47,803 bases of DNA from the NCBI GenBank assembly GCA_021373015.1, contig JAJFTJ010000003.1, forward strand, positions 1-47,803, in the 5' to 3' direction. This document shows, in pieces, positions 1 through 47,803 of the stretch (position 1 is its first letter; the number at the start of each line of letters is the position of its first letter). A program made the translations under genes and the position numbers. Under the pieces are notes generated by a model, which was not told the origin of the DNA, searched no databases, and saw nothing but the letters and a program-made list of their open reading frames with translations. This DNA comes from Nitrospiraceae bacterium (GTDB lineage: Bacteria; Nitrospirota; Thermodesulfovibrionia; Thermodesulfovibrionales; UBA1546).

Positions 1-879
1 AGATTCTCCCAGATATGTCATTGCTTTTCGCCATTGTCTTTTTTTCATCTGTTTCTCTGCCTCAGCATTCCACATAGAAGCAGTTAGCATTTCAGGTTTA
101 AGGATGGAGGGCGCCTTTTTAGTCTCCAAAGCCTTCTTGAATTCTTCGGCAGTCTGAAAACGAAGGTCAGGCTGTTTTGCAATCGCCTTGAGAATAATAT
201 TACACATCCAGTCCGGGACAGAAGCAGGGAAAGAGGGTTGCTCATATATATGGGCATTCATAATTTGCGCATCATCGCCCTTATAAGGCATTTCGCCTGT
301 CAGCATTTCGTATAAAGTAATTCCCAAAGCATAAATATCGGTTCGCGGGTCTTTAGGATTAGCTCCGCTTTTAAATTGATCAGGCGCAAGATATTGGATT
401 GTTCCAAGACGGGTATTAGCCACCCCGAAATCGCTGATTTTAATATGCCCGTCGTTTCCGAGAAGAATATTTGACGGTTTTATGTCATGATGCACGATTT
501 TATTTTTGTGGATAATTGAAAGGCCTGTGCATATTTCGATCGCATATTCTACAGCTTTTTCTATCGGCAACTTCCCTTCCGCTTTAAGAAGATTCCATAA
601 GCTGCCTAAAGGACAATATTCCATTACAAGAAAAAAATTGTTTTCTGAAGGGATAGCCTGATTAATCTTTATTACTTTCTCACAATCAAGCTTTGCAAGA
701 GTTTGCATTTCCTTGATAAAACTTTCAATCTGCTCTTGCTTAACCTCAATCAACTCCTTAATTGCAACTTCACGTTCAAGAATAGTGTCGTATGCCTTCC
801 AAACACGACCAAAACCGCCCCTGCTTAGCGCTTGGTCTATGCGGTACTTATTTTCTAAAATATCGCCGGGGTTAAGCAT
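1..879 (-). CDS. Ser/Thr protein kinase, C-terminus beyond window edge
   Basis: I translated this by hand because the frame runs off the left edge; 293 codons are visible from an ATG at 879. It is a Hanks-type kinase domain. It has a glycine-rich loop (LSRGGFGRVW, residues 18-27), the ATP-binding lysine in VAIKEL (K41), a catalytic loop HHDIKPSN (130-137) with D132 and N137, the DFG metal-binding motif (150-152), and a DIYALG segment near 181. Two departures from the family norm are visible: the usual HRD is HHD, and APE is APD, after a very short activation segment. The domain ends near residue 255 and further sequence continues out of the window. The gene starts 7 bases after the radical SAM stop codon, so it is probably the sixth gene of the leftward island operon. 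A regulatory or defence-signalling role is inferred from the company it keeps. Confidence 0.88.
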   Translation of the reverse strand, partial: MLNPGDILENKYRIDQALSRGGFGRVWKAYDTILEREVAIKELIEVKQEQIESFIKEMQTLAKLDCEKVIKINQAIPSENNFFLVMEYCPLGSLWNLLKAEGKLPIEKAVEYAIEICTGLSIIHKNKIVHHDIKPSNILLGNDGHIKISDFGVANTRLGTIQYLAPDQFKSGANPKDPRTDIYALGITLYEMLTGEMPYKGDDAQIMNAHIYEQPSFPASVPDWMCNIILKAIAKQPDLRFQTAEEFKKALETKKAPSILKPEMLTASMWNAEAEKQMKKRQWRKAMTYLGES

Positions 880-886
880 TTAAAGT

Positions 887-2038
887 TTATCCTAAACAAT
901 TGCACTGCAAGCCATTTATCGTCATGTCAAGGCTTTTCCAAATTTTAATGTCCTCTTTGCAGAGAGCAACTTTTACTTTCCTGTCATGTTTCTTTATGGT
1001 GTCGACAATTACTTTAAACATCGCCAAGCGGTGTTCGTCAGGGTATCTGAGCTTAGTTCCTTCGCTAATCAGTCCGGAGTTAATCTTTAAAAGTGGAGAC
1101 TCTGGAAAACGGGAACTGATATGAGAGGCAAGTCCTTTCGATGGACGATATTCCCCTATAGTAATTCGTTCGGGTTTGACATAAGAGAATATCTTTTCTA
1201 CAAGATTAATGTAATCCTTTTTCCATGTTGAATAAAGAATAACCGGGTCTATTCTTAAGCGTATCTCGTATCCTGCCTGCTGCAACTTCCCTGCCGCTTT
1301 TAACCTTTCTTCAGGGGAAGCGGTTCTATGTTCAAGCTGCTGGTAAACCATATTTGTATTGACGCTAAATGACATAATTGACTTGTTTTTGTGGTCCAAG
1401 TCAAGAAGAGAATCTATACGGTCGCTCTTTGTCAGGAAAAGCAGCCTTGTTTTTTGAGTTTCTTCTGCAACAAAGGAGATAAGCTCTTCAGCAAAGCCCG
1501 TGACATTTTCAACTGCCAGTGGATCGCACAATTCACCAAGGTTCAAGACCCGCAAGACATCAGGGATCTTCGATTTGTCAAAGCTTACTATTTCTTTAAA
1601 CATCTTGTCATAGTTTACAAAGTGAGTTGAAATCGGCATATTGCGGAAAGTGAGATAAAGATAGCAGTACTCACACCAGAAATTGCAGTTGTTATAAGTT
1701 GTTAATTTGTAAAATTTCGAGCACCTGCCGATTGGATGCTGAAATTGTTCGATGAATGAGCTTGTGCGGTTTCTCAAAAGCAGCACTCCCCTCTCAGCCT
1801 GTAGCTTCTTCAACCCTTTATCCCCGTTTAAAGAAGGAGCGGTATCAAACCATTTCAATGATAAGCCTGATCGTTTAGCAATCTTCTTGGCACGCAATTC
1901 ATCACAGTGTCCGCGAACTGCCCATAGTTCAGAAACAAGAGATTGCTTTAGGAAATCGTGTCCATAGCTCACCGCTTTTTCTTTTATTTCCATCTTAATG
2001 CTTTGATTATCTGTTTTATAAGAGACATGCTTTGACAT
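887..2038 (-). CDS. SPL-like radical SAM protein
   Basis: This 383-residue protein carries the radical SAM cluster motif C-x3-C-x2-C (C118, C122, C125, in CNFWCEYCYL) that binds the [4Fe-4S] cluster and SAM. The cluster environment, the later LGELCDPLAVENVTGF segment and FLTKSDRID resemble the spore photoproduct lyase family, whose founding member repairs a thymine dimer by radical chemistry. Cysteines near the C-terminus (ALCKED and CNCLG) could be extra ligands or hydrogen donors, but their role is not known. Its ATG overlaps the TcmP stop codon by one base (TAATG), so the two are translationally coupled. TcmP proteins, as I recall, are typically paired with three-cysteine radical-SAM-like partners, which matches this pair. 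The substrate is unknown; a nucleic acid is a reasonable guess given the neighbours. Confidence 0.85.
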   Translation of the reverse strand: MSKHVSYKTDNQSIKMEIKEKAVSYGHDFLKQSLVSELWAVRGHCDELRAKKIAKRSGLSLKWFDTAPSLNGDKGLKKLQAERGVLLLRNRTSSFIEQFQHPIGRCSKFYKLTTYNNCNFWCEYCYLYLTFRNMPISTHFVNYDKMFKEIVSFDKSKIPDVLRVLNLGELCDPLAVENVTGFAEELISFVAEETQKTRLLFLTKSDRIDSLLDLDHKNKSIMSFSVNTNMVYQQLEHRTASPEERLKAAGKLQQAGYEIRLRIDPVILYSTWKKDYINLVEKIFSYVKPERITIGEYRPSKGLASHISSRFPESPLLKINSGLISEGTKLRYPDEHRLAMFKVIVDTIKKHDRKVKVALCKEDIKIWKSLDMTINGLQCNCLG

Positions 2039-2859
2039 TACTTCATTCCTTTATATTTTTTGAAAATATCCCTTGCTATGTCGTTTGCAGCATTTTTTTG
2101 TGACGCAAAACAAAGATAATAGAGAGGGCCATTTTTCCCATTTGTCATTAAAATAGGTTCAGGGACATATTGGAAACCGACTTTTTTGAGTCGTCTGCAA
2201 AACTCTTTTGCCAGTGCCTGATAATCCTCAACTCTTACATGTTGGGTTTCCCCGAAAAGAGTCTTTTGCTCTCTATAAAGAAGTTGTCTCCAGCTTTCAT
2301 CGCCCCAGAAGGCATTCATCCTTTCAATATTTTCTGGTTTTGCCTTTGCAGGATCCTCAAACAAAACATTTCGATTAATATCCATAATCGGAAAATTTAT
2401 AAATATATCGACTGTTTTCAGTTCGGCGGCAGCCTTAATCGTTTCCCACCTTAATTGAAGACCATATGGATCAAGAATGCACAATGCCCTCCTGAAAGAC
2501 TCATATAAAAATATTGGGAAAATGTCTTTTATAAGAATGTCGTTGCAATCTCCATGGTAGGAATGTACGCTCGGATTTTCTTTTGCAATCTCATTAAACA
2601 CATCAGCACGCTCCTCATCGAGATCAATGAAATGGTACTCTGTAAACGGCGGCTTCACATTTAAAGCATTAAGAGGAGACCCTGGGACAAGCTTTCTAGT
2701 TTTCCTGCTGATATGCTTTCCCGCCCCCGCAAATGCATCTATGTAAATATATCCTTTGCACCATGACTGTTTGCTCATGATACTGGTATAAGCACTGGCG
2801 TACTTCTTGATAATTTCCAATTTTATCTCAGACCAGGAACCGATTTTATCGATTTTCAT
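2038..2859 (-). CDS. tcmP: three-Cys-motif partner protein, TcmP-like
   Basis: The 273-residue protein looks like the TcmP family, named for occurring beside three-cysteine-motif proteins. It shows the fold signatures of a class I SAM methyltransferase: DAFAGAG (41-47) as the SAM-binding loop, an acidic strand end in HFIDLDEER (76-84), GDCND (103-107), and LDPYGL (129-134) in the place where DNA amino-methyltransferases have a DPPY-type catalytic motif. The motif is not exactly DPPY/NPPY, so activity cannot be assumed. The start codon overlaps the stop of the UvrD-like gene (ATGA, 4 bases) and the stop overlaps the radical SAM start. This is the tightest packing in the operon. It is likely a partner or co-enzyme of the radical SAM protein; the reaction is unknown. 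Confidence 0.8.
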   Translation of the reverse strand: MKIDKIGSWSEIKLEIIKKYASAYTSIMSKQSWCKGYIYIDAFAGAGKHISRKTRKLVPGSPLNALNVKPPFTEYHFIDLDEERADVFNEIAKENPSVHSYHGDCNDILIKDIFPIFLYESFRRALCILDPYGLQLRWETIKAAAELKTVDIFINFPIMDINRNVLFEDPAKAKPENIERMNAFWGDESWRQLLYREQKTLFGETQHVRVEDYQALAKEFCRRLKKVGFQYVPEPILMTNGKNGPLYYLCFASQKNAANDIARDIFKKYKGMK

Positions 2860-4718
2860 AAGCTGATATCCTGCAAAAATTCCGATAGACCAACTCTACT
2901 ATAGGTTTTCCCGTCTCTTTTAACTGTCCCTATACTTGCAGTGTGATGGCCTTTTGATTGCCTGAAAGGAAGATCCCGGCTCCAACTTATGGCTAAAGTT
3001 TTTTTAGCTCTCGTAATACCGACATAAAGTAAACGACGTTGTTCTTGCTTGTGTTCATGGTCTGTTAAATGAGCTGACCGATTTTTGCCAGGAATGTTAC
3101 CATCATTACAGCCTAAAATAAAAACGTGATCAGCCTCCAATCCTTTAGAAGCCATTAGCGTCATTACTTTGATTACGTTATTGTCAAAATGTATTGTTCT
3201 TGTGTAGTCAATAAACTTTGAATAAAGACTTTTGATCGTATCATCGACTTCTTTAAGAGAAAATAATACTTGCCTAATATCTAAGAGTTCTTCAACAGAA
3301 TCCGGGAATAAATCATTTATCACCTTTTCGATAGGAACTTCATTTTTGTATAAAGCAATGATTTCTTTGAGTCTGATTATTTTCTCGCATACATGACGAA
3401 CTCTTTTACTCTTTTTATCAAAGTCATTTGGATTTACAGATTGAATTGCATTTTTAAGACTGCCATATTTCTTTTTTATCACCTTAATCTCATTTGCAAA
3501 ATGATTCTCGTCTCCCACTCCTAAATAAGATCTAATATGCAGTAAACCCTCCGGGTTCGCAATGATGCCTAAAAGCGATACGCTTTCTGCTTCTCTATCT
3601 GTGAACGCGCCTTTAACTGCAAAGCGAAAGACAATATCCACAAGCATATGGTGGTTTTCTTTCTTAGCAGTGGCGAATTTTACAAAATCTATGCCCAATT
3701 TTTTCCGAGGGACCAGAATAAAAATATCTTTTGGCGAGGCATCTGAGTTCAATCTCGTATCAATTAGCGTCAGTATTTCTTCGAACTCCTCATCTTGATA
3801 TTGTTTCTGAATGAGTTGAACTTCACCAGTTATAGCATTAGGAAGAGTTTTTAACTTTTTTCTTGTCGGATCAAATTGTATAAGTAATTTATTTGCCAGA
3901 TCGAGTATTTTTGTGGAGCATCTTCCAGAAAAAGGTAGTGTATGATTTTCTGTATTTTCCTTGTCAGCAAATTTAGTGATCCCGACAGGATATGCGAACT
4001 TAAAACTGTAGATAGATTGATCTGGATCACCAACTACTATCAGAAGCTGCGATGATTTTGCCAGAATTTCAATAAACCTCTGCTCTAACTCATTCAAATC
4101 TTGAAACTCATCAACAAAAATATATTGAGGTTCAGCAATAAATTCAGAATCTATCTTAGTTGCTAAATCGACAGCATGATAAGCGATTTCCTCCATCATG
4201 GCTGCTTCGTGTTCACTAAGCCAATTTAGAATTGCTGCCTTAAATTGTCTTTTTTCATCATCCTCATTAAATACTTCATCATGCGGTTTAATAGCCCAAC
4301 CTGCGCTAAATTCATCAAGCATGGCTCGCAGTTTCTTCTTGTCATTTTTTAATATTAATTTGAGATCGGAAATCATTACCTTTTTTTCGAAATCCATTAT
4401 TATTGAATTAACCCGTTTTCTAATCTCGTGATTGTCTTCAGTCAATAAAAAAGATAAACAGAAAGAATGTAATGTTGAGGCTTTTGGCACTTTTTCTATA
4501 CTCTTAACCTTATTCTGGAGGTCAATCGCTGATAGTCTCGAAAATGTCAGAAGAAGAACATTTTTTTGTGCTATGCTTGAATCTGCAATAATTTGTTTGG
4601 CTTTAGGAATTAAGATGCCAGTCGTCTTGCCGCTTCCGGGACCAGCAATAACACAAATTTGTTTTGCGGTTGAATTTAAGATTTCATCAAATTTTCTGTT
4701 ATTATTGGTATCTTCCAT
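2856..4718 (-). CDS. UvrD/Rep-like superfamily 1 DNA helicase
   Basis: A 620-residue SF1A helicase. The Walker A motif is GPGSGKTT (26-33), Walker B is DEFQD (203-207), motif III follows as GDPDQSIYSFK (230-240), and the C-terminal half carries LMASKGLEADHVF (motif V) and RRLLYVGITRAKK (motif VI). These are the ATPase and translocation motifs of UvrD, PcrA and Rep. The protein is shorter than UvrD or PcrA (about 720 residues) and I see no nuclease motif. It is probably a 3'-5' single-stranded DNA translocase by family. It starts only a few bases after the stop of the methyltransferase gene and overlaps tcmP by 4 bases, so it sits in the middle of the operon and is not a housekeeping uvrD. UvrD-like helicases are also found in Gabija, but no GajA-type gene is present here. 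Confidence 0.9.
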   Translation of the reverse strand: MEDTNNNRKFDEILNSTAKQICVIAGPGSGKTTGILIPKAKQIIADSSIAQKNVLLLTFSRLSAIDLQNKVKSIEKVPKASTLHSFCLSFLLTEDNHEIRKRVNSIIMDFEKKVMISDLKLILKNDKKKLRAMLDEFSAGWAIKPHDEVFNEDDEKRQFKAAILNWLSEHEAAMMEEIAYHAVDLATKIDSEFIAEPQYIFVDEFQDLNELEQRFIEILAKSSQLLIVVGDPDQSIYSFKFAYPVGITKFADKENTENHTLPFSGRCSTKILDLANKLLIQFDPTRKKLKTLPNAITGEVQLIQKQYQDEEFEEILTLIDTRLNSDASPKDIFILVPRKKLGIDFVKFATAKKENHHMLVDIVFRFAVKGAFTDREAESVSLLGIIANPEGLLHIRSYLGVGDENHFANEIKVIKKKYGSLKNAIQSVNPNDFDKKSKRVRHVCEKIIRLKEIIALYKNEVPIEKVINDLFPDSVEELLDIRQVLFSLKEVDDTIKSLYSKFIDYTRTIHFDNNVIKVMTLMASKGLEADHVFILGCNDGNIPGKNRSAHLTDHEHKQEQRRLLYVGITRAKKTLAISWSRDLPFRQSKGHHTASIGTVKRDGKTYSRVGLSEFLQDISL

Positions 4719-4723
4719 ATTAA

Positions 4724-7700
4724 CTAATGCCCTTCCACAATCTCAATCTCCTCATCCGTCAATCCATACAACTTATAAACAATTTCGTCTATCAACTCAT
4801 CAGTAGCCTTAATCTTTTCTTTCAAAGGCTCAAGCACTGCCATGCTTTTTGTGAAATGTTTTTCAAGAAGTTCCTGAGTCTTTCGGCTTGATGGGTCTAT
4901 AGAGAGTTTGTTTTTGTTCTTTTTGAGGACTTCAAGGAAGTGGTCAAAATCATGCTCATGATATTCTTTGATTGCGGTCTTATTGCTCAAGTCTTCGATT
5001 CCGGCTCCGATTTCACGTTCAAGCCATTTTAAAAATCCCTTACTCTCCTCGTTCTTGGCCTTGTTCATCTCGATCATCTGCTCTGCGAGATAGGCTATAA
5101 AGTTATGGACTGTATCGTTCCTGCCCATGGCAAATTCATAATCTGTCCATTTTGCAATGTCATCATATTTGGAACGTTCATGCAGCTTAACAGCCTCTTT
5201 AAAAAACTCCTTCCGCTCTTTTTCAGGGGTAGTGAAGGAGATGGGAGGAATAGGGAACCTGTCAAGATCCATTTTTTTTATTTGAGCAGTTGACTCCTTA
5301 TTAGTTATAAGTTTTTCTTGGAAATAAAAGGTTAATAACTTTGAATTGAGCAAGGCCAGCAGAAAATAGAAATTAAAATCAGTATTATTGTCGTACAAAA
5401 AATAGAGAGACTGTTCCACGATTGTTCCGCTATTATCAACGGTAGCAATTAATTGCAAACCTGTTTTTCGTAATAATAATTTAGGTTTTTTCTTCAAAAT
5501 ATTCATATCACATGTTCTGCCTGTAATTGGATTATCTTGAAAATCATTATAATAGCAACCATCTATTTGATATCGGTCAATATTATCTCCCTTAAGAACC
5601 GGAACTTGTTTTTTATTTACAAATTCAGTCGTAATTTTGTCTGAAGATGCACCAAAACCAGATGTAGTCATAATTTCAGTGCCAAGCGGGTATATTCCAT
5701 TTTTTTCGCATTTGATTAATATCGGCAGCGCCGTTAGGCTATAACTTCTTGGAAAAACATATTCATCGGGTTGAACTTCTGATATATTTGCCAAGCGTTG
5801 AAAATTAAAGTTAGATGTAATTGCAACATCATAATTATGACCTGTTTGTTTGTCACGGGTGAATACGTAGATAAGGCAATCAGCTATAACGCCAGGGAAT
5901 TTAACCGAGTAATTCAATGACCTAACTATACACCTATTTAAAATAGTTTTACGTGTAAGAGAATAATACATATTTGTTGCAAGTCTATCTGGGATAATGA
6001 ATGATGCATTACCTTTATCTTTTAGCAATAGTGTCGACAAAAGCACAAAATTTTCATAATAATTTGGCATATAAGTATTAGAACCATATGTGCAGTGAAG
6101 ATAATCTATTTCATTTGTATCCTTTTCATTGCTTTTACGGAAACGTCCTTTTAGTGATACCCATGGCGGATTGCCTACCACGCAATCAAAACCCGGATTG
6201 TTTTTCATTTGAACCTTCTGCTCATAACCTGACATCTGCTCGTAAAATACCTCTGAAAACTCAATCTCCCAGTGAAAGAACCGTTTTTCTTCAGTAATCG
6301 TCTCAACTTTCTCTATCAGCTTCCTGTCTTTATCAGGCAGTTTTGCAATCGAGGCATGAAGGTTATTAAGGTCAATCTTGTCGAAGTCCGACACAAGCAT
6401 CTTTTTCGCATCAGGAATTCCAAAGTAGTCTGCAACGAGCATATCGAGTAGAATTCTGTAACCTTCAAGTCCTTTGTTTGCATCGCCGTATTTTTTATGT
6501 GACTCCTTCACCTGCGCTACAGTCGCATCCGGCAAGTCGGAAACGAAAATCATATCTCTCATTGCCCTTTTTAGCGGTTCAAGGTTTATCGCAAAGAGCC
6601 GTCCGGTTAGAGCTTTTCCCAATGCGTCAATATTGGTCCCGATCAAACTATTGCCGCATTTCAGATGATGATCGAGGAATGACAGCGGCGCGCCAAGCGT
6701 GAAGGAGTCAAGCCACAACGAAAGTTTCGCAAGTTCTACCGCCATTTCATTGAGGTCAACGCCGTAGATGCAGCGTTTCATTACCATGCGCTTAATGAGA
6801 TTGACCTCTGTCAGTTTGCTCTCATCAATCTTTACTCCCTGCTTACTGATTTCTTCAAGTATTTCATTCCGCAATTCTGCAATTTTTTTAATAACAGGAT
6901 TATCAGGATAACCGGCAAGGAATGCGACTATCCTGTCAGAAATATAATCTACTGTGTGCACAAGAAAGTGTCCGCTCCCCATTGCAGGGTCAAGGACTTT
7001 GATACCGAAGACAGTCTTGAATATCTCATCTTCAAGATCTCTGATCTTCGCTTTGTAACCCCGAATACTATCCGCCGACAATTGGTTATTCAATGACTTT
7101 TTTTGCATACCGACAAATAGTGACAGCAACCCATCGGCGATTTTCAGTTTTTCGTCAAGCACAGGCCCGACTGTATTGCCCACGATATATTCGACACTGA
7201 AATGAGGCGTGTAAAAGGAACCTGTTGCCTTCCGTTCATGCCTGGAGTTTTCTATGTAAACCTCGCCTTTTGTCCTTTTGCCGTAAATCCTAAACCCCTC
7301 TTTAATTGCTGATGCCTTCTCCCATAAAGACTTCCCGTCTTTCCTGATTTCAACCACGTCTTCCTCTGCAACCTGAATATGGAATTCCAGTATGCCTTCA
7401 TATATATCGCCGAGATGACGGACGCTGAGGGATGAATAGTCAATAAAGGCAGGCGCATCAGGCGTGTGTATGCTTTCATGGTCAACAGTAAGAAGTTCTA
7501 TTGCATCTGCAAGAAAAGGGTCGGGCAGTTTATGAATTGAAAGAAAACCATCCTTCGGGGTTTCAAACAAACCGCCGTTATACACAGGGACATTCAGCGC
7601 AGGATCGCCTTTTGCAATAATGTCAAAAAGTCCTTGAAGCCTCGCCCAGTAGGTATAAGACCTCTTACTCATTTTATCAAGCCCTGTGCCAGAAATATCT

Positions 7701-8674
7701 TTATTAATGTCCCTCCTGAGCTTTGAAAGGCTTACCCTGTAGTAAGGGTCTTCATTAACAGGCAGGAGATTTCTGCTTTCGGCATAAAGCACAAAAAGCA
7801 GGCGATAAAGAAGGGTGAGACATCCTCTGAAAATAGCTTTTTTGCTTTCATCAGTTTCTTTTGTTGCTGAAAGTTCAGACATCCTGTAATGAACAAAACC
7901 TTCTGCGAGACCTTCAAACACCTTGTCGAAAATAAGGTCTTTCAGTTTTGTGCTTATTCTTGAGGCATAATCCTCAGTCCCTTTTAGATGCTGGTCAAGC
8001 CATGTCTTTCCGGAAATTGAATCAGGGATAAAGGCATCTTTTGAAAAGAAAAGATAAAAATAGAGAAACTTTTCTTTGTCGTTTCTTGTGATTATTTCCT
8101 CAAGATCAATCTCAAAAAAATTGCCGGAGCGGGATGCCGCCTTGTAATAGAATAGGCGCCAGTGTTTTCCATTGGTGAGGATTGCCCATTGAATACGGCT
8201 TTCAGAGGCATGGTACACATCATCGAGATATTTTACTGTTTGCGCTGTAGGGTCTCGCTTGTCGAGAGTGTCCTTCGGCTCTGTATCATTGAGTCTTCTG
8301 CGCCAGTACTTTGCTTCTAAAATAGTTACAGGATGTTTGAAGAATCTAACTAAATTATCTTTCTCATTCCGCGCATCTGTAAGGGAAGCTTTATCCTTGA
8401 ATAAGGCGTAATCCGGTCTTTTCTTTTTCAGCCCTCTTTTGGTAGTTGGCTGTACGTCCCATTCGTAACCGAGAACCTGAAGAACCGGCCTTATGAATTT
8501 ATCCTCAAGCCCTGCTTCTTCTCCCGGGCCAAGCTTTAAAGTCTTAGTCTCGTTATACGCCTTTTTTATAACATCAAAAACATCTGAGACCTTTTCTTTT
8601 TGTTCCTTCCATAAATCAGTATTCGGCAGGCGATGTTCAAGGTAGTTCTTTGAGAAAAGGTTCTGATTGTTCAA
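4724..8674 (-). CDS. PD-(D/E)XK nuclease fused to N6-adenine DNA methyltransferase
   Basis: The 1316-residue protein combines restriction and modification signatures in one chain, like a type IIG enzyme. The N-terminal part has RPDYALF and, about 30 residues on, ILEAKYW: D88, E120 and K122 form a plausible PD-(D/E)XK nuclease site, with an upstream glutamate in LEDKF (E57). The methyltransferase core has motif X TGSFYTP (484-490), SAM loop LDPAMGSGHF (561-570), the GVDLNEMAVELAKLSLW helix region, and catalytic motif IV NPPW (835-838), expected for N6-adenine methylation. The region after about residue 840 is probably target recognition, ending with a helical tail. It begins 27 bases after the SNF2 gene. 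Size and partner resemble DrmMI of class 1 DISARM; PglX of BREX is a more distant alternative. The recognition sequence cannot be read from the protein. Confidence 0.9.
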   Translation of the reverse strand: MNNQNLFSKNYLEHRLPNTDLWKEQKEKVSDVFDVIKKAYNETKTLKLGPGEEAGLEDKFIRPVLQVLGYEWDVQPTTKRGLKKKRPDYALFKDKASLTDARNEKDNLVRFFKHPVTILEAKYWRRRLNDTEPKDTLDKRDPTAQTVKYLDDVYHASESRIQWAILTNGKHWRLFYYKAASRSGNFFEIDLEEIITRNDKEKFLYFYLFFSKDAFIPDSISGKTWLDQHLKGTEDYASRISTKLKDLIFDKVFEGLAEGFVHYRMSELSATKETDESKKAIFRGCLTLLYRLLFVLYAESRNLLPVNEDPYYRVSLSKLRRDINKDISGTGLDKMSKRSYTYWARLQGLFDIIAKGDPALNVPVYNGGLFETPKDGFLSIHKLPDPFLADAIELLTVDHESIHTPDAPAFIDYSSLSVRHLGDIYEGILEFHIQVAEEDVVEIRKDGKSLWEKASAIKEGFRIYGKRTKGEVYIENSRHERKATGSFYTPHFSVEYIVGNTVGPVLDEKLKIADGLLSLFVGMQKKSLNNQLSADSIRGYKAKIRDLEDEIFKTVFGIKVLDPAMGSGHFLVHTVDYISDRIVAFLAGYPDNPVIKKIAELRNEILEEISKQGVKIDESKLTEVNLIKRMVMKRCIYGVDLNEMAVELAKLSLWLDSFTLGAPLSFLDHHLKCGNSLIGTNIDALGKALTGRLFAINLEPLKRAMRDMIFVSDLPDATVAQVKESHKKYGDANKGLEGYRILLDMLVADYFGIPDAKKMLVSDFDKIDLNNLHASIAKLPDKDRKLIEKVETITEEKRFFHWEIEFSEVFYEQMSGYEQKVQMKNNPGFDCVVGNPPWVSLKGRFRKSNEKDTNEIDYLHCTYGSNTYMPNYYENFVLLSTLLLKDKGNASFIIPDRLATNMYYSLTRKTILNRCIVRSLNYSVKFPGVIADCLIYVFTRDKQTGHNYDVAITSNFNFQRLANISEVQPDEYVFPRSYSLTALPILIKCEKNGIYPLGTEIMTTSGFGASSDKITTEFVNKKQVPVLKGDNIDRYQIDGCYYNDFQDNPITGRTCDMNILKKKPKLLLRKTGLQLIATVDNSGTIVEQSLYFLYDNNTDFNFYFLLALLNSKLLTFYFQEKLITNKESTAQIKKMDLDRFPIPPISFTTPEKERKEFFKEAVKLHERSKYDDIAKWTDYEFAMGRNDTVHNFIAYLAEQMIEMNKAKNEESKGFLKWLEREIGAGIEDLSNKTAIKEYHEHDFDHFLEVLKKNKNKLSIDPSSRKTQELLEKHFTKSMAVLEPLKEKIKATDELIDEIVYKLYGLTDEEIEIVEGH

Positions 8675-8701
8675 AAAAAAAGAGATTGGCCTGTTCTGGC
8701 A

Positions 8702-11665
8702 TTACTCCATCCTCCATATTGCCTGAGCTATTAACTCCCGCTCAACCTTTATCTTCAATTTCTTCTCCAAGCTCTTTAACTCCTGATTCTTTTCCTCAAA
8801 CAGCTTCTTCTTTTCAACTGCTATTTTATCAACCATTTTACTATATTCCTGTTCAAGCCGCTGAACTTCTTTTCTTGCAGACATGCGCTCTTCAAACGAC
8901 AGAGATTTCTGTCTCTTCTTCTTTGCCTCTTTCCATGCATCCTCAAGCTTCTTTAAATCATCCTGCATTTTTAGAACTGCTTCTTCAGAATAGGTCTCCA
9001 GTTTATCCATTTCCCTTTCAAAGTAATCTTCATTACGGAGGCCGATTTCCTTCAATAGCTCATCAGTAAAAGTCTTTAAGGCGCTATCCACTAATTCAGA
9101 TGGGGGTACTTCATGCTTTATGTCTTTGCACTCAAAAGCTGTTACTGTCATCATTTTTTCACAGAGATCATTGGAAAGAGCTTCCCATCGCTCATCTTCC
9201 CTGATAAAAAACAGATGACTTAAATGGTCTTCTTCCTCCAGTCCCTTGAATGAGAGCTTATAGGACATGCAATAACCTGACTTGCCAAGAAGATGCTCTA
9301 AGGGCGAAATCTTGTGACCTGCTGCTGAATAAGCAAGCGTTACAGAACATGTCTTTTCAGTAGGGAGTTCTTTAGCTGCCCTGATCGCAGTCCTTACAAG
9401 AGGATGTCCGAGATGAAGTCTTGCAGCTGATTCCTTTTCGCCCTTTCCCTTTCCAATATAAAAGGTTCCGGGCATAACATCCCCGGGCATATTCATGATA
9501 ATCCACGGCGGGAAAGAGGGAATATCGAAATAATATGTGCTGTCTTCATATTTGTAATCATTTACGTTAAGACTGCTGCATATGAACTTTAAAAGCATCA
9601 CGTCAAATGCTGTAAGCTCCTTCTTTATCTCCTCGTTTCTTGTTCTGAGCCTTGCCCTTACCTCATCATCAAAATTTTCAAGAAGTTTTGACCTTGCATG
9701 AAGCATGGTCTCTTTAATCTGCTCTGCCAACTCAGACTGCAAAGCATCAAAAGCCTTATTTATTTCTTCCGCTGTACGGCACGATTGATATATATCGAGA
9801 ATGCGTTTCTCAAAATCCACACCTGAGCCTATAACTCCCAAAACTTCATCCGAAACTCCGAATACACCGTCAAAGAGCCTGAGTTTTTTATCAAGCAATT
9901 CAAATACGCGATTATCTGCGGCATTTTTTCTATTTAGGAAGTTCAGGACAACAACATCATGCTTCTGTCCGTATCTATGGCAGCGGCCTATCCTTTGTTC
10001 TATCCTCTGCGGATTCCATGGAAGGTCGTAGTTGACTACAACATTACAGAACTGAAGATTGATGCCTTCTGCCCCTGCTTCTGTAGCGATAAGTATGTTG
10101 GTGTGATTTCTGAATTCATGAATGAGGGCTTCCCGGATAGAAGCATCTTTAGAGAGTCTGAGTTCTTTATCATGCCGGACCCTTTCTTTCAGCCATCGCT
10201 CATACGCGCGCCTGCCAATCGGACCCTCATTGGTTCCGCTGAAAAGGGTTATTCTGTCTTTATAGCCGGCATCCAAGAGCAAATGAAAAATATACTGCTG
10301 CGTCCTTCTTGATTCTGTAAAGATAACCGCCTTTTCAGGCCACCCCATCTTCTTATTATGTTCAAATGCTTTTCTGAGGGCAATAATCAGCGCTTCGCCT
10401 TTTGAGTTCTTATTGATGCATTTCGCAAGATTTTTAAAACCGACTAATTCCTGTTTTTCAGCTTCGATCTCTTCAGGCGTAAAATCTGCTTCTTTTTCTT
10501 CAGGCACTTCGCTGTCATTTTCTATGGCTTCGCCGTTTTCCTGCTTTGCAATCTCTTCTAATTCTTCTTCATAGCCGTCAACGTCTTTAATAAAACTCTC
10601 TACCGATTCAGGCTGAAGCCCCTTTATTTGCCTGTCAAGATTGCCTATAAGACTTTCGAGGGTCTGTGCAATAGCAAAGCTTGAGCTTGCAAGAATTTTC
10701 CTATATATCAGAACCATGAGAGCACGCTGACTGTGTTTTATCGCGGCCACTTCAGGCCTTTGCAGATATTCTGATACCATTTCGTAAAGCCTGTATTCCT
10801 CATCTGAAGGGGTAAAGTCTTCCACCATGCTAATTCGGTTTGTATATGGAATATACTCCTGTACCTGCTTTCTGAGTGTTCTTATATAGAGGGCAGACAG
10901 CCTGGACTTGAGTTCATCGAGATTGTCCACCTCAAGCCCCCGCCTATCGCTCATGAATTTACTTTTAAAAGAATAATCTGTGCCAAGGAGTTTATCATCA
11001 ACGAAACTTGTCAGTCCGTAGAGTTCCATAAGGGAGTTCTGGAGAGGAGTTGCAGTAAGAAGTACCTTTGGCTGGTTCTCAAATAGTTCTTTCAAGCCTT
11101 GTGCTGTTTTATTTCCTTTCTTATAGACATTTCTCAGCCTGTGGGCCTCATCTATTACGATCAAGTCCCATTTGGCAATAGCTTTTATTTCAAATCTTTT
11201 AGAAAAGGCAAAAGGAAGTGAAACAATAACAATAAGGTTCTCCCTGTCAAAAGGATTGTAGTTGCCTTCCTTCTTTATTATCTTATATTCAAGACCGTCT
11301 ACAATTACACTCTGGATATCGAACTTTTCTATAAGCTCATTCTGCCATTGCTTCCGAAGGGATGCAGGCACAACAATGATGATCTTTCTTCTCCCCTCTG
11401 CCCATAGCTGACTTATAATCAACCCTGCCTCGATTGTTTTGCCCAACCCCACTTCATCACAAAGTATTGCGCCTCTTGAAAGGGGACTGTTAAAAGCGAA
11501 TAGAGCTGCTTCTATCTGATGAGGGTTAAGATCAACTGCGGAAGACGCAAGGCTTTGACTAAGTTTTTTTAATTCATGAGACGGGCGCTTTAGTGTAAGT
11601 TCGTGGGCAAGGACTTTTTGATGGAATGGGGGGACGAAGATATTACGTAATTGAGGGCCATTCAT
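8702..11665 (-). CDS. SNF2-family DNA translocase, DrmD-like
   Basis: The 987-residue SF2 ATPase has the full SNF2 motif set: DEVGLGKT (70-77, Walker A), DEAH in LIVIDEAHRLRN (172-175), TATPLQN (204-210), VIFTESRRT (about 448), ATEAGAEGINLQ (about 527) and the arginine-finger block QRIEQRIGRCHRYGQ (553-567). An acidic low-complexity insert (about 366-406) separates the two RecA lobes. The C-terminal ~110 residues are highly charged and probably coiled coil. SNF2 proteins move on double-stranded DNA. Together with the next gene this resembles the DrmD/DrmMI pair of class 1 DISARM, or a type ISP restriction enzyme split into two proteins. It is the first gene of the leftward operon, so the operon promoter should lie in the gap to its right, where I see no convincing sites. 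Confidence 0.9.
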   Translation of the reverse strand: MNGPQLRNIFVPPFHQKVLAHELTLKRPSHELKKLSQSLASSAVDLNPHQIEAALFAFNSPLSRGAILCDEVGLGKTIEAGLIISQLWAEGRRKIIIVVPASLRKQWQNELIEKFDIQSVIVDGLEYKIIKKEGNYNPFDRENLIVIVSLPFAFSKRFEIKAIAKWDLIVIDEAHRLRNVYKKGNKTAQGLKELFENQPKVLLTATPLQNSLMELYGLTSFVDDKLLGTDYSFKSKFMSDRRGLEVDNLDELKSRLSALYIRTLRKQVQEYIPYTNRISMVEDFTPSDEEYRLYEMVSEYLQRPEVAAIKHSQRALMVLIYRKILASSSFAIAQTLESLIGNLDRQIKGLQPESVESFIKDVDGYEEELEEIAKQENGEAIENDSEVPEEKEADFTPEEIEAEKQELVGFKNLAKCINKNSKGEALIIALRKAFEHNKKMGWPEKAVIFTESRRTQQYIFHLLLDAGYKDRITLFSGTNEGPIGRRAYERWLKERVRHDKELRLSKDASIREALIHEFRNHTNILIATEAGAEGINLQFCNVVVNYDLPWNPQRIEQRIGRCHRYGQKHDVVVLNFLNRKNAADNRVFELLDKKLRLFDGVFGVSDEVLGVIGSGVDFEKRILDIYQSCRTAEEINKAFDALQSELAEQIKETMLHARSKLLENFDDEVRARLRTRNEEIKKELTAFDVMLLKFICSSLNVNDYKYEDSTYYFDIPSFPPWIIMNMPGDVMPGTFYIGKGKGEKESAARLHLGHPLVRTAIRAAKELPTEKTCSVTLAYSAAGHKISPLEHLLGKSGYCMSYKLSFKGLEEEDHLSHLFFIREDERWEALSNDLCEKMMTVTAFECKDIKHEVPPSELVDSALKTFTDELLKEIGLRNEDYFEREMDKLETYSEEAVLKMQDDLKKLEDAWKEAKKKRQKSLSFEERMSARKEVQRLEQEYSKMVDKIAVEKKKLFEEKNQELKSLEKKLKIKVERELIAQAIWRME

Positions 11666-12179
11666 AAATTTTCAGGTTTTTTTGAATCTATAAAGGGAAA
11701 TTGCATTTAGCTCGTTTGTAAAAAAGGTAAGGTCTGTGATTGGTTTATGTCTTCCTGCCTCTTTTTCAGACATGGATTAAAGTATCAGGTTCATAGCATT
11801 TTTTCAAGGATTAAACTGTCGCTTCAAGGAGATTGTCCGTGAGTTGCTGAAGCTCGCATTCGTTGCAAAGCGAGAAACAAGAACATCGGAGGCGCGAAGA
11901 TTTAGATGTGATTATGTATCGATTTCCGCTTGTACTCCGCAGAATGCTCGGTATGCTCTTGGCTGTTGACTTCTGTGAGAAATAAATAACCGTTCCGAGT
12001 GCTCAAATCTATTTACTCGGAGAGGTACTTCGCAGTTATTGAGCCTCTAAATCGTTGCAGACTTCGGGAGGCCTTCACGGGTCGTAATTTCAATTGAAAT
12101 AAAGATTCACAAACCAGTGCATAGCCTTGACAAATATCTAAAGTATCGCTTATCTTCTTTTGAGCGTGAGGATGAGAAG
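11666..12179. other. 514-base intergenic region between divergent operon and integrase
   Basis: This gap separates the leftward SNF2-led operon from the rightward integrase gene and should carry both promoters and possibly the recombinase arm sites. I see no convincing promoter, terminator, RNA gene or excisionase-like ORF. One plus-strand frame (from about 11777, after a TAA) stays open for about 65 codons and reads arginine- and lysine-rich protein, but it lacks an ATG and I cannot assign it. A small regulatory or excisionase remnant is possible. Confidence 0.4.
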
Positions 12180-13478
12180 ATGAATGGAACCATACGTCCA
12201 ACTTCAAGAGAAAGTAAGTGCCCCAAGTGTTTTAAGGCTTTCCATCACATTATAAAAATCGGCTATATTTGTCCTGACTGTCAGACTGTTCCTAGGAAGT
12301 TTGTCATAGATATGCACTGGAAAGGGCAGCGTACCCGTATATGCTCTGACAAGCAAAGTCAGCCTTTAGATACTTATCGGAGAGCCACTGATTTGCTCTC
12401 AAATATCAGACATGAAGTTGACCAGCACATTTTTGACCCAACGAAGTATGTAGCCGCTGAAGGAAGAAAATTTTATGCATCAACCCTACTTAAGGAATTC
12501 CTACAGGACAAGTTGAAATCGATAGCACCTTCATATCACTCGGGATATAAGAAACAGGTAGAAAGAGCCAAGCAGCATTTCGGCAATTCAGATGTCAGAG
12601 AAATGAGAAAGGACGATGTTGTCAAATACCTTGAGTTTCTAAAGAATGAGAAAAATGTGCGAGCTGTACCGCTTAAGTCTAAGACCGTCCTTAATAACTT
12701 TGCAAACTTCAAGACATTCATGATGTATTTGAAAGAAGAACGGCAACTAATCAACGCTGTGCCTGACTTCCCGACAGAAAAAGAGGTAGAAAGAAGGATG
12801 GAAGAGATTATATTGAATGAGAAACCCTTTCATTATGTTTGGTTTAAGCCTGAAGATCAGATGAGTATTCTGGATGCAATTGAAGGCAAAGAGGATAGGG
12901 AGATCGTAAGGTTTCTCATGCTTCACGGATGTAGACCTGGGGAAGCCAGGGCGCTCCGAGTAGCAGATGTAAATATTGAAACCCTGAGCATAACTATCAA
13001 GTCTACATATTCAAGAAATACTCTTAGGTTGCGTCGAAAAGGGAAAAAATCTAAACCCTACTCAATCGCTATACATCCTGAGATGGTCGATTTTTTCAAA
13101 AAAAGAGTTAAGAACCATCCCGAAGCTTTCATCTTTGTTAAACCGAAGACTGGCGGACCTTACATGATAGACGCTTTCCAAAATATTTTTGTGAGCGTTC
13201 GTTCAAAGCTGAATATACCTCAGGAAGTCAGGTTATATGATGTGTCTCGTCATTCATTCGTTACTCAGTTGAGAAAAGCTGGTCTTCCTGTCAGCGAGAT
13301 CAGCAAACTCGTAGGGCACAGCTCAGAAAAGATAACCGAGAATGTATACAATCATGCCGACGATATAGAGATAGAAAATAAGAGGTTAGCCATTTCAAAG
13401 CTGTCATTGAGAAAACCTGCGGAGGTGGTTAATATAAAGGCAGCCAAGAGAAAATCGTCAACAGACCGTCAACAATGA
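12180..13478 (+). CDS. tyrosine recombinase (integrase) with N-terminal zinc ribbon
   Basis: I chose the ATG at 12180 because a GAGG-type ribosome site lies about 8 bases upstream; an in-frame ATG at 12117 lacks one. The 432-residue product has a zinc ribbon first (C14, C17, C31, C34), then an arm/core-binding helical region (about 95-195), then the catalytic domain: R252 in HGCRPGEARAL, a lysine-rich beta-hairpin (about 287-292), R357 in DVSRHSF, H380 in LVGH and the nucleophile Y390 in TENVYNH. The usual HxxR histidine appears to be replaced (D354), a change some active integrases tolerate. The gene ends 55 bases before a tRNA 3' fragment, so it is the likely integrase of the island. It should catalyse site-specific integration and excision at that tRNA. 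Confidence 0.92.
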   Translation: MNGTIRPTSRESKCPKCFKAFHHIIKIGYICPDCQTVPRKFVIDMHWKGQRTRICSDKQSQPLDTYRRATDLLSNIRHEVDQHIFDPTKYVAAEGRKFYASTLLKEFLQDKLKSIAPSYHSGYKKQVERAKQHFGNSDVREMRKDDVVKYLEFLKNEKNVRAVPLKSKTVLNNFANFKTFMMYLKEERQLINAVPDFPTEKEVERRMEEIILNEKPFHYVWFKPEDQMSILDAIEGKEDREIVRFLMLHGCRPGEARALRVADVNIETLSITIKSTYSRNTLRLRRKGKKSKPYSIAIHPEMVDFFKKRVKNHPEAFIFVKPKTGGPYMIDAFQNIFVSVRSKLNIPQEVRLYDVSRHSFVTQLRKAGLPVSEISKLVGHSSEKITENVYNHADDIEIENKRLAISKLSLRKPAEVVNIKAAKRKSSTDRQQ

Positions 13479-13533
13479 TTTCTAAGTGGTAATATTATCT
13501 ATATATATCAATGAGTTGCAAGTAGCGTGTGCG

Positions 13534-13559
13534 GGTTCGATTCCCACGCGCTCCCGCCA
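13534..13559 (+). other. right attachment site: orphan 3' end of a tRNA-Sec-like gene
   Basis: The 26 bases from GGTTCGATTC to CCA read as the T loop, 3' acceptor strand, G73 and encoded CCA of a tRNA, but no 5' half lies upstream: no matching GGGAGCG appears in the 90 bases before it. Between the T loop and CCA there are 14 bases, not the standard 13. This is what the 8-bp acceptor plus 5-bp T stem of bacterial tRNA-Sec requires. The T stem also mismatches on its 5' side (GCGGG against CCCAC), as expected if recombination joined foreign sequence there. It is best read as the attR of an element integrated in selC, with intact selC off-window to the left. The selC assignment is inference from geometry. 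Confidence 0.7.
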
Positions 13560-13569
13560 AAAATTGAAG

Positions 13570-13851
13570 ATGCCTGACAGCCACGGACATAAGAAAAAAG
13601 ATGCAAGCCAGATAAAAGAGATACGCGCTCTTGCAAAGGAATTCACGCCAGAGCAGATTGAAAGCTGCATAACACAGCAGATTGCTGAAGGCAAGAATGT
13701 CTGTCTCATACATGACTCACATGATCATGTGGTAAATATTTTATCCAAGGCGTCATTCGTAAAAAGCCAGATGCATAAAGGCGTGTCCATGATTGATGCA
13801 ATAAGACAACTTGCAGACAGGATTCGCAAAGTACAGAAGGGATTTAAGTAG
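13570..13851 (+). CDS. small protein of unknown function
   Basis: The 93-residue product starts at the ATG at 13570. An upstream in-frame ATG at 13486 would force translation through the tRNA fragment, so it is unlikely to be the natural start. The protein is charged, with a histidine- and lysine-rich N-terminus (SHGHKKKD) and a second histidine cluster (HDSHDH) in the middle. It is probably helical, with no signal peptide or membrane segment. I do not recognise the family. It is the first chromosomal gene past the island boundary, and before insertion it would have followed the tRNA directly. The ribosome site is weak (GAAG). Confidence 0.6.
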   Translation: MPDSHGHKKKDASQIKEIRALAKEFTPEQIESCITQQIAEGKNVCLIHDSHDHVVNILSKASFVKSQMHKGVSMIDAIRQLADRIRKVQKGFK

Positions 13852-47344: not shown

Positions 47345-47803
47345 AGTTATTCCAGAGGCAATCGCTTAACAGAGACAAAAGGCACAGACACACAAATAAA
47401 CTACACCCACAATGCAAATAACGAACTGACTGCAACAGACGCCATAACATATTTATACGATGCAAATGGAAACACAATTCAGGAAACCAATGGCAGCCAG
47501 ATAACAAAATACACATACAACTCATCAGACAGACTTGAAAAAGTAGAACTCCCTGACGGCAGAATCGCAGCCTACACCTACGACCCATTTGGAAGAAGAA
47601 TAAAGCAAGATATAAACGGACAAGTCACTTATTATCTCTATGCTGATGAAGGATTAATCGGTGAATATGACTCAACAGGAAACATCAAAAAAGCATATGG
47701 CTGGATGCCAAACAGCATCTGGGGAACAAACCCAGTCTTTATGCTTGAAAATGGAAATTATTATTTCTATCACAATGACCATCTTGGCACACCGCAGAAG
47801 ATG
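47345..47803 (+). pseudogene. 5'-truncated RHS/YD-repeat protein fragment, continues past window edge
   Basis: This frame is open for 153 codons to the window edge and reads YD/RHS repeats: YSRGNRLTETKG, TYLYDANGNTI, KYTYNSSDRLEKVELPDG, YTYDPFGRRIKQ, and NDHLGTPQ, the sequence at the end of the RHS core. A TAA lies directly before it (47342-47344), and no ATG, GTG or TTG occurs in frame until ATG at 47705, so the large N-terminal part is missing. RHS proteins are normally very large polymorphic toxins or cell-surface proteins. It looks like a displaced core/tip fragment inserted or recombined just after guaB. Whether the C-terminal tip is intact cannot be seen. Confidence 0.7.

Follow-up and report, generated by a model that had tools for sequence, protein, structure and literature searches.

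The DNA analysed here (the window, a stretch of 47,803 nucleotides from contig JAJFTJ010000003.1 of Nitrospiraceae bacterium assembly GCA_021373015.1) opens with a run of minus-strand genes that encode a protein kinase, a radical SAM protein, a three-Cys-motif partner protein, two helicases and a methyltransferase, followed on the plus strand by a tyrosine recombinase (integrase) gene, a fragment of a tRNA gene and a DUF6952-like gene (Table 1). The integrase gene points toward the tRNA fragment and ends, at 13478, 54 bases away from it. The fragment itself, GGGTTCGATTCCCACGCGCTCCCGCCA at 13533-13559 on the plus strand, is an orphan tRNA 3′ part made up of the end of the T-stem 5′ strand, the T loop (TTCGATT, 13536-13542), the T-stem 3′ half, an 8-nt acceptor 3′ strand, G at position 73 and CCA, with 5+8+1 = 14 bases between the T loop and CCA, and ARAGORN reported no complete tRNA at this position. 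An earlier note, made from the letters alone, had described an orphan tRNA 3′ half after the integrase gene with the 14-nt distance and 8+5 geometry of tRNA-Sec and with G73, and all of this was borne out by the sequence. The coordinates given there, 13480-13559, contain the real fragment but also include 53 island bases that are not tRNA, and identity with the complete gene described below begins at 13533, not at 13534.

Table 1 Features of the window around the displaced tRNA end
Feature	Positions	Strand	Matches and remarks
Ser/Thr protein kinase, truncated at the left contig end	1-879	-	NCBIfam PknB-type kinase, 9.4e-71
Spore-photoproduct-lyase-like radical SAM protein	887-2038	-	Pfam PF20903, 3.1e-34
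Three-Cys-motif partner protein TcmP	2038-2859	-	NCBIfam TIGR04474, 218.8 bits, above cut-off; PADLOC PDC-M41A
UvrD-family helicase, GajB-like	2856-4718	-	Pfam UvrD-helicase, 1.1e-34; PADLOC GajB, 3.5e-49
Eco57I-type methyltransferase, type IIG- or DrmMI-like	4724-8674	-	Pfam Eco57I, 2.1e-26, and TaqI_C, 6.7e-24; PADLOC DrmMI, 2.6e-83
SNF2-family helicase, DrmD-like	8702-11665	-	PADLOC DrmD, 1.6e-199; NCBIfam DISARM_DrmD_b, 662 bits, under the cut-off of 950
Tyrosine recombinase (integrase)	12117-13478	+	Pfam PF00589, 1.7e-17
Putative arm-type integrase site, direct repeat CGTCAAC-AGAC-CGTCAAC	13456-13473	+	Sole copy in the genome (up to 3 mismatches)
Motif ATCAATGAGTT	13507-13517	+	29 bases ahead of the T loop; same offset in the attR of G017 and G160
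attR core	13533-13559	+	Displaced tRNA-Sec 3′ end; 27/27 identity with complete selC, G000:C12:114-140(-)
Chromosomal right flank, common to the empty site	13560-13672	+	With the core, 140/140 against C12
DUF6952-like host gene, natural right neighbour of selC	13570-13851	+	Starts 10 bases past CCA (C12 and window)

A search of the genome (22 contigs, 1,685,579 bases, or 1.69 Mb) with the 27-mer, allowing up to 3 mismatches, returned exactly two copies, both perfect, one in the window and one at positions 114-140 of a second contig, C12. The latter is the 3′ end of a complete tRNA-Sec gene, selC (C12:114-211, minus strand, anticodon TCA, called tRNA-SeC by ARAGORN), which is the only complete one in the genome and, at 69 bits, the only match to Rfam RF01852 above the family cut-off. 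A chance match is excluded because the reversed 27-mer, used as a control, matched nowhere in the genome and a 24-base version of it, again with up to 3 mismatches, matched nowhere in 0.96 Mb of related loci. SelA (610.7 bits) and SelB (382.8 bits) are both encoded by the host, as the earlier note had proposed to check, and the tRNA-Sec therefore has a use in this organism. The 8+5 acceptor/T geometry, G73, the UCA anticodon and the two host proteins all agree with selC as the target, the identity that the note had put forward. Another tRNA gene as carrier of the repeat, which would have counted against the note, was rejected as only selC holds the 27-mer, and a tRNA-His-like extra base was rejected since G stands at position 73 and the full-length gene encodes tRNA-Sec.

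Read in the direction of selC, C12 carries uvrB, a short hypothetical gene on the opposite strand, selC, 113 bases and the end of the contig. From the end of selC to the end of the contig, C12 is identical to the window at all 140 bases when the core is counted, and the two alleles diverge immediately to the left of the core, with T in selC and C in the window. Because selC runs directly into the right flank of the window on C12, the empty site, attB, is the one on C12, and the right junction, attR, is the one in the window, and because selC joins that flank with nothing between them in the same assembly, the DNA to the left of 13533 is foreign, as had been supposed from the fragment. The same right neighbour is found in G037, which belongs to a different family of the order: there, selC is followed after 265 bases by a DUF6952-like homologue on the same strand (66% identical over 79 residues), a gene order that supports the uninterrupted arrangement as the native state. 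A random or pseudogene duplication of a tRNA end, without integration, would suit the short length of the fragment and nothing else; it is refuted because the empty site exists, the adjoining integrase gene and the recurrence at the same tRNA end in many relatives, described below, also speak against it, and we give it a negligible probability.

The orientation of the fragment relative to the shared flank is correct, and the occupied left junction (attL) is absent from the assembly, in which the core has only its two copies and the right-arm repeat only one, and in which a comparison of contig-end overlaps joined the left end of the window contig to no other contig. The window starts inside the element, whose left end lies beyond it. 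The intact selC that the earlier note had placed at the far left of the element does exist, but it was found in the empty-site allele on C12. The signature of Islander tDNA islands (PMC4383910), a complete tRNA gene (here C12:114-211), a displaced 3′ fragment (13533-13559) and a tyrosine integrase gene in the candidate interval (12117-13478), is common to this case, which differs in that its left end is absent from the assembly and an uninterrupted-site allele is present; the latter, on C12 and with the same neighbour in G037, is supporting evidence outside the formal Islander definition.

The first base of the acceptor 3′ strand (window 13548, C12:125) is G here (GCGCTCCC), in both attB and attR, and A in nearly all other listed selC genes of the order, mostly ACGCTCCC, also ACACTCCC, with few other variants. 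A second tRNA-Sec-like gene with a GCA anticodon and U73 was seen in relatives (L057-L061, from G006, G007, G002, G015 and G001) and would fit a selC*-type tRNA-Cys, a class previously known from Nitrospirae (PMC7609411); in G006 and G015, a short TusA-like reading frame (MLIDARGLGCPKP) follows this gene.

The integrase frame is open and keeps the invariant residues R273, R378, H401 and Y411, and its N-terminus contains a CPxC/CPxC zinc-ribbon-like segment that is conserved in its family. The true start is probably ATG 12180, which aligns with the start of a 70%-identical protein from G017. On contig C38 of G017, the direct repeat CCGTCAACAGACCGTCAAC lies ~50 bp past selC, and it recurs in the window at 13455-13473, before the core, with the first base differing; the two repeats look like integrase arm sites that would flank attP on its two sides. 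Motifs like ATCAATAAGTT occur 14-15 bases past CCA at the selC of many relatives, compared with 1% in control windows, and lie within 45 bases in 14 of 60 complete selC sites labelled by script, a few of these labels being wrong. After selC on C12, neither the arm repeat nor a motif of the ATCAATGAGTT or ATCAATAAGTT type is present, as expected of an empty site.

We considered whether the C12 junction might be an assembly artefact made through the 27-bp repeat, the occupied allele alone being real. C12 stops exactly where the stretch it shares with the window reaches 140 bases, in what is apparently a k=141 graph, which suits such an explanation; exact overlaps among the other contig ends are all 141 bases (a tally that leaves aside two short contigs whose ends appear masked), and we infer that this length reflects a k=141 de Bruijn graph. 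At this k, a 27-bp repeat should produce no false join, which is made unlikely because the C12 and window junctions each need read support over ~140 bases, with reads that span selC and the flank. The same gene order in G037 and the lack of attL motifs after the C12 selC also argue against an artefact, and we regard it as very improbable. The simplest reading is that the sampled population holds two alleles, occupied and empty, with the element probably carried by only some members of that population and C12 probably ending at a branch that was pruned from the graph. Allele abundance is not readable from the assembly because a 140- rather than 141-base overlap has more than one possible origin. 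At the other end of the window, the last 141 bases (47663-47803) recur at the right-hand end of contig C16, in a repeat at which the assembly forks, and the final bases read YFYHNDHLGTPQKM, which is RHS-repeat-like.

Relatives of the integrase (E ≤ 1e-15) were found in 42 of 176 genomes of the order Thermodesulfovibrionales. In a scan of named genomes, their hosts were Nitrospirota (Thermodesulfovibrionales, Candidatus Magnetominusculus and others), anammox planctomycetes and a few deltaproteobacteria-type organisms, and no relative turned up when viral contigs were searched with the integrase. Integrases ~38-43% identical occur in the anammox planctomycetes Brocadia, Scalindua and Kuenenia (L147, L150, L152, L153, L156, L164, L166), which suggests that anammox planctomycetes and Nitrospirota have related mobile elements. 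Related integrases are followed at a distance of 60-133 bp by selC 3′ fragments in G017, which belongs to another family and whose integrase, like the one here, adjoins the fragment, in G121 and G110, and in G004 (27% identical), while the 3′ ends of other tRNAs stand behind related integrases at L085, L088, L097, L098, L099, L101, L103 and L106. For many other relatives, a simple pattern search found no tRNA 3′ end within 700 bases, and in the 700 bases that follow the close homologue in G133 (75%), a tRNA fragment is likewise absent.

The interval to the left of the core, 1-13532, would form a single element. Its tetranucleotide distance from the host is 0.170, compared with 0.085-0.140 for 21 overlapping host segments of equal length, and marks the island moderately, whereas its G+C equals that of the host and does not mark it. 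From the names of their families, the cargo genes may serve an antiphage role. A DrmD-like helicase beside a DrmMI-like methyltransferase is common to this cluster and class 1 DISARM; unlike DISARM, the cluster includes UvrD-like, TcmP, spore-photoproduct-lyase-like and kinase genes, and no drmA, drmB or drmC was recognised in 1-13559, the element continuing to the left of the window. With DrmD-like and DrmMI-like proteins only and none of these three genes in the window, the DISARM label was withheld. The TcmP and radical SAM genes (887-2859) have ends that touch at 2038, an arrangement suggestive of a functional pair. At the same site in another family, after selC in G017 (L111:6886-17001), there are genes for an HKD/SNF2 helicase, a type IIG restriction-modification enzyme, a prokaryotic Argonaute and a SIR2 protein, a cluster that, again going by family names, appears defence-like.

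A complete selC together with a separate selC 3′ fragment was found in at least 14 of 176 genomes from five families (G000, G004, G005, G011, G017, G040, G047, G056, G074, G081, G105, G110, G118 and G121), as judged by counting copies and reading most of the extra ones; the counts are approximate, as the genomes are mostly metagenome bins. In five of these, gene and fragment are on one contig, separated by 16.8 kb (G004), 8.0 kb (G056), 5.7 kb (G105), 2.1 kb (G011) and 1.3 kb (G081). The G004 contig holds both ends in the order complete selC, 16.8 kb, related integrase and selC fragment, and the 16.8 kb appear prophage-like, as its translations read as terminase-like and tape-measure-like proteins. 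G017 carries three fragments besides selC, of which two share a contig and are separated by 1 kb. In this order selC is thus a hotspot, and the integrases that use it are only distant relatives of one another.

With the sequence identity of the core, the integrase gene, the empty site and the conserved neighbour all directly observed, we hold with high confidence that 13533-13559 is the attR of an integrative element, a genomic island, whose attachment site is the selC 3′ end. An integrase, presumably the one encoded at 12117-13478, would have recombined the chromosomal selC with an attP bearing its own copy of the final 27 bases of that gene; integration would leave the element with an intact tRNA gene restored at its left end and displace the original selC 3′ end rightward, beside the DUF6952-like gene. 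The population would hold both forms, the window contig representing the occupied junction attR and C12 the empty junction attB.

The element may still be mobile. It could instead be a dead remnant with its left end lost or rearranged, C12 coming from a related strain that never carried it, a reading that agrees on insertion at selC and differs on present mobility only. The absence of attL from the assembly would fit a remnant, as would the short intervals in G011 (2.1 kb) and G081 (1.3 kb), remnants with a selC fragment that are without this integrase family. However, the open integrase frame with its catalytic residues and the perfect 27-bp core, with a flank 100% identical over 113 bp in both alleles, fit a recent insertion, and we think a dead remnant unlikely. 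More tentatively, and with somewhat less than even confidence, selC in Thermodesulfovibrionales might be a recurrent landing site for zinc-ribbon tyrosine recombinases with exchangeable antiphage cargo, the element here coming and going within one population.

Elements that integrate at selC with a 27-bp core have been described before. Prophages of the Pf-tRNA-Sec type in Pseudomonas aeruginosa have tRNA-Sec as attB and a core formed by its last 27 bases, which run from GGGTTCG in the T arm to CCA (PMC7549136). The present element shares with them the tRNA-Sec attB, the displaced core of the last 27 bases and a tyrosine integrase, that of Pf being specific for this tRNA; unlike Pf, a filamentous phage, it shows no phage genes in the 13.5 kb available, carries defence-like cargo and resides in a Nitrospirota host. 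The Burkholderia myovirus PhiE067 also integrates in the selC 3′ end beside its integrase, with a 19-bp core (PMC7266877) compared with 27 bp here. Islands of Escherichia coli at selC have long been known (e.g., PMC6174562), in line with the hotspot status named in the earlier note; the site is common to both, while host phylum and cargo differ. A literature search for Thermodesulfovibrio with integrase, tRNA and genomic island returned nothing relevant by title and abstract. What is new is a well-resolved case in the little-studied Nitrospirota, in which one boundary of an integrative element is fixed almost to the base and the empty allele shows that the defence-like genes to the left of this boundary are an insertion. 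This extends selC as an integration hotspot to Nitrospirota and, for a family of recombinases that differ in the tRNA 3′ ends they use, supplies attB, attR and the integrase.
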